This document shows positions 50,712 to 63,538 of a stretch of DNA of 64,000 nucleotides, piece by piece (position 1 is the stretch's first letter; each line of letters opens with the position of its first letter). A program made the translations under genes and the position numbers. A model generated the notes under the pieces. It was not told where the DNA came from, did not search any database, and was given only the letters and a program-made list of their open reading frames with translations. The stretch is taken from assembly GCA_947258585.1 (NCBI GenBank), contig CAMYIZ010000074.1:1-64000 (forward strand), written 5' to 3'. The DNA is from an uncultured Haliea sp. (GTDB taxonomy: Bacteria > Pseudomonadota > Gammaproteobacteria > Pseudomonadales > Halieaceae).

Positions 50712-52070
50712 GTGGGAAAAGCGTCAGCCAATCGATTCAAATTCAGCAGGCAAAGCCTTCGGGTCATAGAGAAGCGAATCGATAAGGGAGAATTTGCCAC
50801 AGAATCGTACCTATATGATTCCGACAGTCACCTGGCCATCCGGGTAAGGCCCAACCAATCATACATCGACAGCGGTTTCTGCCTGTATGCGCGTATTCGT
50901 GTGTGTGGCCAGCTCAAAGGGCAGTTATACAAGCGACAATTAATGAAGGTAGGTGAAGCAAGGAATAGCGCCACCACATTGACTGAGCTACGACAGCAGG
51001 CCGATAACCTATTTCTGGATATCCAGAACGGCCGTGATCCACAGCTTCTCGCCAAAAAAGCGGCAGAACAGCAGGCCAGAGAGGAGGCGCACTCAGAGGC
51101 AAAATCCTCTCTGAGAGAAATGATCCACGGTACTAAATCCAAGAGTGGTGAAGTTTTGACTAATGGCTTTATAGCCGAGCGCCAGTTGAGTCCGCGATAT
51201 ATTTGGGATATTGAGCGCCACAGTCGTCTCTTGTTATTCGATTTGTTGGATGAACCGTTGTATTCAATTTCTCCTGATCAGGTTAAGACGGTTTATTTGC
51301 AGAAAGTAGGGCGGGGCGCAACACAATTACATATAGCAATGCGAATGCTGCGATCAGTGTGGAATTGGGCGCAGGCCAAATATGATGAGTCTGAACTGTT
51401 CATGCGCAACCCTGTCAGCCGGGCGATGAAACAATTGGGTATCAACATCAACCGCACCAATCGACGTTCTGTCAGGCTCGATGATGGTGATTTAGAACCG
51501 TACCTCACTTCAGTGCTTAATCTCAGGAATCATGATCATACCTCTGCGCTACGAAACGGCAGAGATGCATTGCTGTTTATGCTGTTCTCTGGCGTGAGAG
51601 TGACAGGTGCGCTAACCATCCGTATGCAGGATATCGATCTTCAAAAGAGATGTTTTACTATTACCAAGAAGGGTGGAGAAAGGGCTGTGCTGCCCTTGAA
51701 TTCCGTGACTGAGTCGATTGCCCTCAACCGAAAGAAATATCTCCCAGGCGATTCCGTGTATCTTTTTCCAGGTGTTGGTGGGCGAGGGCGTTACCGAGAT
51801 ACGAAAAGCGCCAGGGAGATCATAAAAACACAATCCGGAATAGCCGTTACGAACCATGATCTACGGCGTACCTTCAAATCCTTGGGTACTGAATTGGGCA
51901 TCAACCAGGTTCTGGTTGATGAACTACTCACCCATGCAAGGGAAGGGGTGGATGCGCACTATATTCATCCTTCGATGACAAGGCTCAGGGAAGCTAGCCA
52001 GGACATTGCTGACCACATTATGGGGCAGGCGGGAATTGACGTATGTAAGGAACTATTGGACCGCTGGTGA
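50712..52070 (+). CDS. tyrosine recombinase/integrase (ICE)
   Basis: 452 aa; NHDLRRTFKSLGTELGINQVLVDELLTHAREGVDAHYIHP (HxxR...H...Y). Confidence 0.93.
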   Translation: MGKASANRFKFSRQSLRVIEKRIDKGEFATESYLYDSDSHLAIRVRPNQSYIDSGFCLYARIRVCGQLKGQLYKRQLMKVGEARNSATTLTELRQQADNLFLDIQNGRDPQLLAKKAAEQQAREEAHSEAKSSLREMIHGTKSKSGEVLTNGFIAERQLSPRYIWDIERHSRLLLFDLLDEPLYSISPDQVKTVYLQKVGRGATQLHIAMRMLRSVWNWAQAKYDESELFMRNPVSRAMKQLGININRTNRRSVRLDDGDLEPYLTSVLNLRNHDHTSALRNGRDALLFMLFSGVRVTGALTIRMQDIDLQKRCFTITKKGGERAVLPLNSVTESIALNRKKYLPGDSVYLFPGVGGRGRYRDTKSAREIIKTQSGIAVTNHDLRRTFKSLGTELGINQVLVDELLTHAREGVDAHYIHPSMTRLREASQDIADHIMGQAGIDVCKELLDRW

Positions 52071-59308: not shown

Positions 59309-59426
59309 AGGTTTCACACGTGGTCACTGCGGTCTCAGTGACACCAGGTATCGTCGGATTGCGAAATCGATACCGCGGCTATGCCGTCAATCCACCGTTG
59401 GGGTCGCCCCCGACGTTTACTCACCC

Positions 59427-59924: not shown

Positions 59925-59933
59925 TCGACGTTC

Positions 59934-60023
59934 TGGCTACATCCTTAGATGTAGCCAAGCTTTTAATCCCGCGAGGAACCCATTCCTCGCGGAATCGGTC
60001 TCCCCGCACCCTTCAAGGAGACC
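59934..60023. other. three consecutive stem-loops between DUF3577 and radC genes
   Basis: TGGCTACATC-CTTA-GATGTAGCCA (59934-59957); CCGCGAGGA-ACCCAT-TCCTCGCGG (59969-59992); GGTCTCC...GGAGACC (59997-60023), the last containing the SD of the next gene. Confidence 0.75.
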
Positions 60024-60543: not shown

Positions 60544-60598
60544 CCGGTATTCATTCAACCCATCGGGGAGTCACAGTCGTCCCGGTGGGGCGGCGGTA

Positions 60599-60626
60599 CT
60601 CCCTGATTTTCTCACAACTCAGGGAG
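60599..60626. other. stem-loop containing the SD of the downstream gene
   Basis: CTCCCTGA-TTTTCTCACAAC-TCAGGGAG, start codon at 60634. Confidence 0.7.
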
Positions 60627-60633
60627 ATTCCCC

Positions 60634-61059
60634 ATGAAAGAAGCAGAGTTCAAGTCATTACAAGATGTGTTTGGCCCTGTCATTGCAAGTTACAGCCGTC
60701 AGCAGGCCATCGAAGATGGCGTGTTGATCGATGTCACACCGACAGCGCGCGAGGCTGGATTCGTGTTGCCGGTCGCCGTCAGTCACGCTGCCTGGTGTGA
60801 TTGCGTTGCCTGGACAGAGCGGGACAACCGCTTGCAGGTCTACCAGGACGAGTCCGGGCGTTTGTGGGATGTGCTGTTCATGGCGTTCTACGCGATCAAT
60901 GCCACCAGTGACTCCGGCGATCGGTTGACCTACGCGTTGTACCGGGTACCGAAAGACGGCCATTCAACGGAAGCGGAAGAGGTCAGCCTGAAACTGGTGG
61001 TGGGTCCGGGCGATGCGGGTGAACCGGTCGTTACGATCATGCTGCCAAACGAAGTTTAA
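60634..61059 (+). CDS. DUF6573-like ICE protein
   Basis: MKEAEFKSLQDVFGPVIASYSRQQAIEDGVLIDVTPTAREAGFVLPVAVSHAAWCDCV. Confidence 0.75.
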   Translation: MKEAEFKSLQDVFGPVIASYSRQQAIEDGVLIDVTPTAREAGFVLPVAVSHAAWCDCVAWTERDNRLQVYQDESGRLWDVLFMAFYAINATSDSGDRLTYALYRVPKDGHSTEAEEVSLKLVVGPGDAGEPVVTIMLPNEV

Positions 61060-61063
61060 TCTC

Positions 61064-61928
61064 GCCGAGCAATTCGGCTCCTTGCCCTGGCCACTTGGGA
61101 TAAAGTGGCACCTCCAACCTGCCTGCCCGCCGTTCCGGCAATTCCGCTTACCCCGTAAAGACGACTCCGTAGCTCACTGACGCTTTGACACTGGTTCCAC
61201 TGTCACCGTGGCCTGTACCTCCACGGCTGCGCAATGCCCGTGACAGGTCGCAGACCTGGCGTGGGCATTGCCTCGCACGAAGCCCTCGTCACTGCTGAGC
61301 GAAGCGGGGTAGTGACGAGGGCGGCGGAGCCCGGAACGACAGCGGATAGCGCCCGAATTGATGCGTTCCAGGCGAGTTCGGTCTGGCTAGAATGCTGCTG
61401 AGCATTGCCAATCGCTTCAGACGCGGCCACGGCGGTAACGTGGATGAGGGGTCGCCCTTGCCATCCTAACTGGCACAAACGGCAGTCGCGCTAGCAGAGC
61501 TTCACTGGCGCACAGCATTCGCTGCAGCTCGTCTTCAATACCAGGAGGTTTCTCTTTTCTTCCCGCTGGCAGCTGCCAGTGCAATCCCGGCTGGCAAACA
61601 GCCGACACTCAACGCGCCGTCGCATCGACGGGTTCTTTTCACGACAGGTGGGCCAAACGCCCGTCGCTTTCAACAGGAGCTTTAGTTTTATCCTTTTTCA
61701 AGGTCCTTTCGACGTAGGGGGTTCTCCCCGACTTCGGTGCAGCAAACGCTGCGTCTAACCCGACTGGCAAGCAGTCGACCTTCCCCACGCCGGCACACAG
61801 CCGGTTTCTCTCAACCCACGGACCGATGGTTCCGGACATTCAACAGGAGGTGAAGTAATCACCATCAACGCTGGCTCTTCGAGCCACTGGTTCACCTGGC
61901 ACCATCTTCGACAGAAGAGCCGCCAGGT
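61064..61928. other. hairpin-dense ORF-poor region (candidate structured RNA, oriT or sso-like DNA)
   Basis: At least ten stem-loops read directly, including GCCCTCGTCACT...AGTGACGAGGGC (61282-61322) and GCAATGCCC..CAGGTC-GCA-GACCTG..GGGCATTGC (61231-61271). Confidence 0.6.
61586..61849. repeat. imperfect tandem units: covarying hairpin followed ~80 nt later by TTCAACAGGAG
   Basis: Unit A CGGCTG-GCAAA-CAGCCG (61588-61604) ... TTCAACAGGAG (61669); unit B CGACTG-GCAAG-CAGTCG (61761-61777) ... TTCAACAGGAG (61839). Confidence 0.65.
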
Positions 61929-62054
61929 TGCCTGCGACCAGGCTTATCAGGTCGAACGGGAGTAGTGTCCCTTGACCCCTCCGTCTCGGCGGACCCGGTC
62001 AGGCTGCGTGCCTGCTGGTTGGTCACAAACACTTACCAGACTGGAACGTACACG

Positions 62055-62921
62055 ATGCGAGACCTGAACTACCAATTGAAACAGCTGTGTCAGCGCAACC
62101 GGGATGGGAGCTACAGTACCCAGGCAAATCGGGCGCGGATGCTCAACCAGATTGCCAATCAACTGCAGGAGATGGGCTATCGGCGTATGACAACACATTC
62201 GCTCAAGCCCAAGCACGTGGATGTGCTGGTGAAGCGCTGGCTCAGTGAGGGGATGGCGGCCGGTACCATCAAGAATCGCATGAACTGCTTGCGCTGGTGG
62301 GCCGCGAAGGTGGATCGGCGCAATGTCGTCGCACGATCCAACGACTTTTACGGCATTCCTGATCGACAATTCGTCAGCAACACATCGAAGGCAGTCGCCG
62401 TTGATGACAAGGCGCTGTCCGCGGTGCCGGATGCGCATGTGCGCATGAGTCTGGAATTACAGCGGGCGTTCGGATTGCGCCGCGAGGAAGCGATCAAGTT
62501 TGTGCCCACCTATGCGGATCAGGGCGATCATATTCGCTTGAAAGCCTCCTGGACCAAAGGGGGCAAAGCGCGGGTGATACCAATGCTCACCCAGGAGCAG
62601 CGCGATGTACTGACACGCGCACGCCGCTTGGCGGGTAGCGGCTCCCTGATTCCAGCGCACAAAAACTACATTCAGCAGCTGCGAACCTATGAACGTCACA
62701 CCACGCATGCGGGCTTGTCCAAGCTCCATGGGCTGCGCCACGCCTACGCCCAGGCTCGCTACCTGCACCTGGCCGGGTGGGCATGTCCAGCGGCGGGAGG
62801 ACCGACGGCAAACCAGCTAACCGTCGATCAGCGCAAACAGGATTATCAGGCGCGCCTCACCATCAGTCGCGAGCTGGGCCACATCCGCGAGCAGATCAGT
62901 GCGGTGTATTTAGGAAGGTAA
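62055..62921 (+). CDS. second phage-type integrase (Phage_integr_N/Integrase_1-like)
   Basis: MRDLNYQLKQLCQRNRDGSYSTQANRARMLNQIANQLQEMGYRRM...LHGLRHAYAQARY...ISRELGHIREQISAVYLGR. Confidence 0.88.
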   Translation: MRDLNYQLKQLCQRNRDGSYSTQANRARMLNQIANQLQEMGYRRMTTHSLKPKHVDVLVKRWLSEGMAAGTIKNRMNCLRWWAAKVDRRNVVARSNDFYGIPDRQFVSNTSKAVAVDDKALSAVPDAHVRMSLELQRAFGLRREEAIKFVPTYADQGDHIRLKASWTKGGKARVIPMLTQEQRDVLTRARRLAGSGSLIPAHKNYIQQLRTYERHTTHAGLSKLHGLRHAYAQARYLHLAGWACPAAGGPTANQLTVDQRKQDYQARLTISRELGHIREQISAVYLGR

Positions 62922-63043: not shown

Positions 63044-63538
63044 ATGTTCTCCGCCAAACACCAACGCTCACCGCGCATCCTTCCGAGCCTGTTGTGCTGT
63101 TTTAGCCTTACCACCGTAAGCGATGTGGCCTTCGCCGCAGCGCCGCCCGAGAGGGATCTTGGCGCACTGACGCAGGTTGGCCGCTACAGCGTTCTCGCCG
63201 CGGGGCCCACCAAGGGTCAGCGGGATCTGCTGGCGGTGACCAGTGCAATCGACATTCCCGTCGACGTACAGACAGTCGGGGAGGCATTGCACTGGTTGTT
63301 GCGTGATTCCGGGTATCGCCTGGCGGCGGTCTCTGTCATGCCGCTCGAGGTGAAGGCCATGCTCGAGCTGCCGCTGCCGGGTGTTCATCGCCGGTTCGAG
63401 CCCATGCCACTTCAAACGGTGATCGGGCTGATCGTCGGGCCCGCGTTTGATCTGGTGCAGGATCCGGTTCACCGCCTGCTGGCCTTCGAGCGCTGTGCGG
63501 GAACACCTGATTCAGCTGCTATGGTAGAGGTGCGGTAA
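63044..63538 (+). CDS. PilL N-terminal-domain conjugation protein
   Basis: LGALTQVGRYSVLAAGPTKGQRDLLAVTSAIDIPVDVQTVGEALHWLLRDSGYRLA. Confidence 0.85.
   Translation: MFSAKHQRSPRILPSLLCCFSLTTVSDVAFAAAPPERDLGALTQVGRYSVLAAGPTKGQRDLLAVTSAIDIPVDVQTVGEALHWLLRDSGYRLAAVSVMPLEVKAMLELPLPGVHRRFEPMPLQTVIGLIVGPAFDLVQDPVHRLLAFERCAGTPDSAAMVEVR

Follow-up and report, generated by a model that had tools for sequence, protein, structure and literature searches.

Background

The mobilisation module of Salmonella genomic island 1 (SGI1) is the closest described system to the locus analysed here, a hairpin-dense block (61060-62055) upstream of an integrase-like gene in a 64,000-nt stretch of DNA (the window) from an uncultured Haliea sp. 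(contig CAMYIZ010000074.1). SGI1 carries an origin of transfer (oriT) with three inverted repeats and encodes MpsA and MpsB; the oriT and an essential small RNA (sRNA), sgm-sRNA, lie upstream of mpsA, and the sRNA derives from the 3' portion of a transcript of ~700 nt directed toward mpsA (PMC6414798, PMC9299015). Supplying MpsAB in trans does not substitute for the sRNA, and the module, with its atypical relaxase and sRNA, was said by its authors to be one that "seems unique" (PMC9299015). The three oriT stem-loops are kept in SGI1-related islands (PMC8409611). TcpM of pCW3 (MOBM) and MobK of pIGRK are also tyrosine-recombinase-like relaxases with an oriT upstream (PMC9299015, PMC8152469, PMC12857230), and were compared here by literature alone. 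Both are reported to be unrelated in sequence to MpsA (PMC9299015), and no report of a structured RNA with either was found in the literature searched. That literature, which excluded subscription papers and preprints, describes the module for the SGI1 group only.

The block in the window is likely to be an oriT with a relaxosome-associated structured RNA for an MpsA-like relaxase, and thus a broad variant of the SGI1 module. It would provide the cis-acting half of a module for conjugative mobilisation. The MpsA-like protein would bind and nick an inverted repeat with a GTCACT/AGTGAC core, and the region from the repeat to the gene would be transcribed in the gene direction into a structured RNA ending near AAACACTTACC. 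This RNA is a probable cofactor, either in relaxosome assembly or in docking to the TraD coupling protein. At the sequence level the repeat and the RNA-like element are strongly supported, and from SGI1 we infer the oriT activity, the relaxase activity, the transcription and the role of the RNA. An earlier note on this DNA had offered a structured RNA, an oriT-like or single-strand-origin-like element, or a recombination target within an integrative and conjugative element (ICE). A structured RNA (61838-62038) and an oriT-like element (61282-61322) are favoured jointly, and the recombination target is not favoured.

Inverted repeat and putative RNA element

The relatives used for comparison are homologous PF12834/PF12835 "integrase" genes with their upstream regions from Gamma- and Alphaproteobacteria. 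A counterpart of the inverted repeat was found in 66 of the 95 regions upstream of related integrases, in one of 77 downstream controls and in none of 47 window tiles. The core is GTCACT/AGTGAC in 58 of 69 distinct repeats and GTCTCT, GTCATT or GTCCCT in the others. The outer stem changes on both arms together, with 373/414 outer pairs being Watson-Crick in the same 69 repeats; this count is biased by the selection of repeats for pairing, and only the comparison of GT with AC mismatches is unbiased. That comparison (GT 9 vs AC 7) reveals no strand preference in this DNA repeat. The strict repeat pattern occurs at seven sites in the window's own genome and the reversed pattern at none. By analogy with SGI1, positions 61282-61322 are probably the oriT core. 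One further copy of the inverted repeat (G000:C76:3448-3478, L079/L221) has neither an integrase nor an R1 match nearby, and a second, short GTCACT..AGTGAC repeat lies in the window at 59323-59342, between ParM-like and DUF3577 genes.

Downstream of the repeat, the 84-nt element R1 ends in a tail whose consensus across relatives is AAACACTYACC. Its structure was made by hand and then checked by shuffles, slides and realignment to a covariance model. The covariation score in the first alignment (A1, 48 sequences) was 0.318 vs 0.155 ± 0.010, reached in 0/500 shuffles, and structures slid along the alignment gave at most 0.128. In the realignment (A2, 65 distinct sequences), which leans toward the R1 covariance model, the score was 0.394 vs 0.136 shuffled (0/500) and 17 of 20 pairs had changed on both sides. 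RNAalifold on the raw MAFFT alignment recovered the first hairpin only, because gaps shift the junction arms. A cmsearch over 733 kb gave 69 hits, some of them in loci outside the training set (Pseudomonas, SAR86 and plasmids). The E-values outside training were 1.5e-5 for L073, 0.004 for L164 and 0.013-0.1 for Pseudomonas; on plasmids they were 0.03 (IncP-type) and 0.16-0.34 (rhizobial). The weak matches were counted because they are positioned just upstream of a related integrase gene.

Base pairs of R1 include 65 GU against 32 AC, and its loops swap among the UUCG/UNCG and GNRA types. Together these features favour RNA, read from the + strand. In the middle section (alignment A3), 91% of cells are paired and the covariation score is 0.215 vs 0.132 shuffled (0/500). 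The alignments favour a covarying + strand RNA element that spans 61838-62038 and adjoins the integrase gene. The idea that an RNA loop (GTNGTG) and the tail (CACTTAC) are copies of the DNA repeat core was dropped because the RNA motif does not change along with the core where that is GTCCCT, GTCATT or GTCTCT.

MpsA-like protein and comparison with SGI1

The product of the 62055 gene matches SGI1 MpsA with 32% identity over 210 aa (E 8e-22). SGI1 MpsA was recognised by its published residues R162, H247, R250, H251 and Y319; no SGI1 mpsA match was present in the E. coli genomes searched. The catalytic residues R142, K168, H225, R228, H276 and Y285 of the 62055 protein are invariant in 12 proteins. 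An AlphaFold model (pLDDT 88.6, pTM 0.63) has a tyrosine-recombinase fold, and its closest folds are IntI4, Tn1549 Int, XerH and lambda Int. Among solved structures, IntI4 from an integron recombination complex is the nearest relative, both in sequence profile (E 0.005) and in fold. The chain stops 3 residues past the catalytic Tyr, and the model ends at the tyrosine helix with no helix beyond it. By analogy with SGI1, this protein would be an MpsA-like relaxase. The earlier note had called its gene the second ICE integrase, a label that is probably wrong; the ICE has its own Phage_integrase gene (50712-52070), and the 62055 product is homologous to MpsA. An IS110-type bridge RNA system was rejected since such systems use a DEDD recombinase and both Pfam and fold place this protein among the tyrosine recombinases.

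The locus resembles SGI1 in several ways: its PF12835 protein is homologous and shares the catalytic residues, an inverted repeat of matching core type lies upstream, CACTTACC stands shortly before the gene, and a putatively RNA-encoding region separates repeat and gene, all in the same order and direction. In the SGI1 copy (L109), CCCCGTCTCTGT..ACAGAGACGGGG corresponds to the repeat and lies at -418..-381; CACTTACC is located some 65-70 nt ahead of mpsA. By our arithmetic from published coordinates, the SGI1 repeat falls in the minimal oriT and CACTTACC in the sRNA core. The likeness of R1 to sgm-sRNA is one of position and of the CACTTACC motif, not of a covariance-model match. Unlike SGI1, the 62055 protein has a PF12834 N-terminal domain fused to it, and the module occurs in an ICE that encodes a TraD of its own, and also on alphaproteobacterial and Moraxellaceae plasmids. 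Integron integrases, with their attC hairpins, share the tyrosine recombinase fold; however, no cassette array was seen here, and the gene associates with coupling proteins rather than with cassettes.

Distribution and relaxase content

The integrase-protein family was found in 35 of 369 sampled gammaproteobacterial genomes, about one tenth. In the same 369 genomes R1 had 33 hits in 13 genomes, of which 26 were with the gene, one was with its first 20 residues only and six had no gene nearby. Six of these seven gene-less or remnant R1 copies retain the repeat, the exception being L216. The orphan copies without an integrase gene are L213, L214, L215, L216, L218 and L220. Three of them (L213-L215) share one genome, where other intact modules could act in trans. 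Among the genes near the orphans are HsdM, Fic, HipA and Phage_integrase.

Small plasmids of Acinetobacter, Psychrobacter, Aeromonas and Oceanimonas carry the gene without an annotated relaxase. Small plasmids typed as non-mobilizable carry it, several of them with a VirD4/TraD-like gene directly adjoining; it is closely followed by a coupling-protein gene on plasmids of Acinetobacter, Psychrobacter and Pleionea. The SGI1-like layout recurs on plasmids of rhizobia, Acinetobacter, Psychrobacter and Aeromonas, as well as in Pseudomonas islands that carry anti-phage defence genes. Pseudomonas copies L060, L062, L063 and L068 are near KwaB, DruA, CAP12-TIR or reverse transcriptase genes, with TraI_2 at L063 and L068. 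A PF12834/PF12835 integrase of the same type flanks mcr-4.3 on a Shewanella baltica plasmid (PMC9769806).

The window ICE has a TraD coupling-protein gene 2.8 kb past the 62055 gene. SXT_TraD was found in 14 of 16 module-bearing genomes, and in G000 it lies 2.7-2.8 kb beyond each of four modules. Relaxase genes were rarer, with PF03432 in one of six module-bearing genomes and TrwC (PF08751) in none of 14 over the cut-off. In the window's own genome none of the three main relaxase types searched for (MOBH, MOBP/Q/V and MOBF) was found, in a search that did not take in the PF01076 profile of MOBV, nor MOBC, MOBT or other types. Genes of the PFGI-1 class (ICEclc type) are present in the window ICE (ParB, STY4528, STY4534, RadC and PilL2). 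ICEs of this class normally use a MOBH TraI relaxase, but TraI_2 (PF07514) was found in only one of 16 module-bearing genomes.

The SGI1-like layout is far wider than the SGI1 group, and the module may explain the movement of mobile elements that have no recognisable relaxase. If so, it would be the source of the relaxase and oriT that are missing from elements classed as non-mobilizable by typing tools. The inverted repeat and the R1 model together would make a computable marker for finding such elements, and a role of RNA in starting conjugation would become testable in many hosts. It is a more tentative proposal, and on balance a doubtful one, that the RNA belongs physically to the relaxosome, making it a ribonucleoprotein relaxase, with conjugation beginning only once relaxase and RNA assemble on the repeat, and that many ICEs, defence islands and plasmids typed as relaxase-less have this as their general system for initiating transfer.

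Alternative explanations

Several results weigh against the block being an oriT with a relaxosome RNA. No repeat was detectable at 29 of the 95 loci, many of which are distant family members, and L216 keeps R1 with no repeat in the fetched stretch. The R1 covariance model has no match to SGI1 or its Aeromonas relatives at E<=1. No MpsB-like gene follows the 62055 gene, the next one being PilL2 at 63044, and the block contains no sigma-70 consensus promoter. The complete recombinase active site also leaves room for true recombination.

The last point is the basis of a quite different explanation, in which the 62055 gene encodes a true site-specific recombinase whose substrate is the repeat (integration, inversion or multimer resolution), with the structured part serving as an accessory site or RNA. 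The core-binding and catalytic fold with its structural matches to known recombinases, the resemblance of the repeat to paired core sites and the sharing of the block and gene alone among Pseudomonas islands are consistent with this. However, the ICE already has an integrase gene, MpsA is required for transfer, and the gene is recurrently linked to coupling proteins without a relaxase. The short C-terminus also argues against it; classical tyrosine recombinases have a C-terminal helix (alphaN), which controls recombination (PMC3646895). This explanation is improbable. It is slightly less so, but still unlikely, that the RNA is only a cis-regulatory leader, a long 5' leader controlling recombinase expression with the repeat as operator or attenuator. 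R1 is directly upstream of the gene at most loci, stops 16 nt short of the start codon in the window, on the strand of the gene, and is preceded by a near-invariant, Shine-Dalgarno-like AGGAGGTGA in the middle section. A leader does not account for the R1 copies that lack the gene, most of them with the repeat, nor for a distance from R1 tail to start codon that varies from about 23 to 125 nt across loci; the failure of MpsAB to replace the sRNA in SGI1 (PMC9299015) also speaks against it.

The block might instead serve replication, as a vegetative or single-strand origin that the excised ICE would use and that folds as single-stranded DNA. Many conjugative elements carry such origins, and the hairpin density and folding energy would suit one. 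The roughly two-to-one excess of GU over AC in the 3' element and its loop swaps point to RNA, and the gene and repeat also occur on plasmids that have replicons of their own (RepM); a replication origin is therefore very unlikely. An oriT with an associated RNA remains the preferred explanation.

Composition of the block

The earlier note had described the block as noncoding and rich in hairpins, and both descriptions hold. There is no convincing open reading frame (ORF) in 61060-62055, and all ten of the listed stem-loops are present at the positions given. The block has 17 stems (at least 5 bp, loop 3-5) compared to 3.7 ± 2.2 in dinucleotide shuffles (0/200 reach 17) and 13 in the best of 64 window tiles. 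Stems of at least 7 bp are near the shuffle level (3 vs 1.6, matched by 47/200 shuffles), so the excess is one of short stems. Of the checks proposed in that note, folding as RNA gave -408.9 kcal/mol vs -375.0 ± 7.7 (z -4.4, from 20 shuffles only), and the search for conservation in related ICEs found that the repeat and the downstream element recur and covary. Rfam gave no match at the gathering score across the whole window, and no tRNA was found; permissive E-values brought chance-level matches only, and an Rfam identity for the block was rejected. No conservation was found for the recurrent GCAAN loops.

Table 1. Positions of the block features and flanking genes in the window
Feature	Position	Strand	Evidence
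DUF6573 gene upstream of the block	60634..61059	+	PF20213, E 3.3e-24
Two hairpins (61064-61078, 61090-61109) of the DUF6573 3' end	61062..61116	+	89-93% identical piece
Long imperfect hairpin	61231..61271	+	most relatives keep 16-18/18 pairs and have 2-4 compensatory changes; covaries among ICE copies
Inverted repeat GCCCTC-GTCACT..AGTGAC-GAGGGC, putative oriT core	61282..61322	strandless	12/12 pairs kept in every ICE copy compared
Conserved segment 3' of the inverted repeat	61414..61482	+	78-89% identity in L051, L052, L053, L071
Extra ~116-nt segment (approximate), part of a partial duplication	61639..61754	+	window and closest relatives only
Putative RNA middle section: near-invariant AGGAGGTGA..TCACC hairpin and three further stems	61845..61943	+	alignment A3
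Putative RNA element R1, 84 nt: GGGAGTNGTGTCCC hairpin, three-way junction, AAACACTTACC tail	61955..62038	+	covariation, cmsearch
MpsA-like tyrosine-recombinase-fold protein, putative relaxase	62055..62921	+	PF12834 7e-17, PF12835 2.2e-14

The block is not uniform, but a composite of segments with different histories among relatives (Table 1). What six Pseudomonas loci have in common is confined to about -732 to +870-899 relative to the gene start, so the block and gene are taken as one unit. The first ~57 nt remain with DUF6573 when cargo genes insert behind it (L038, L040, L041, L047), while the block from about 61192 or 61269 onward travels with the recombinase gene; the first ~200 nt were rejected as part of the core module. 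Pairing is all or mostly kept in the hairpins at 61231-61271, 61282-61322, 61761-61777, 61790-61804 and 61872-61886. The repeat is invariant among ICE copies and the other four have compensatory changes, although the hairpin at 61231-61271 is absent in L017. The hairpin at 61391-61406 is not conserved among relatives, and those at 61566-61631 are in a segment restricted to the closest relatives. By comparison with relatives, the hairpins at 61064-61109, 61391-61406 and 61566-61631 are placed outside the module. Query 580-694 is missing from other ICE copies, and query 527-579 matches twice in L009/L056. The window's own genome has a second ICE copy with 75-86% identity and five other places with a short block piece.

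The cargo ORFs in L038, L040, L041 (between query 57 and 133) and L047 lie between DUF6573 and the oriT-like repeat; examples are ORFs of 430 and 176 aa on the minus strand. Their positions suggest that this gap is a cargo hot spot. More hairpins occur in the gaps before radC and DUF6573, at 59932-60006 and 60570-60637 of the window.
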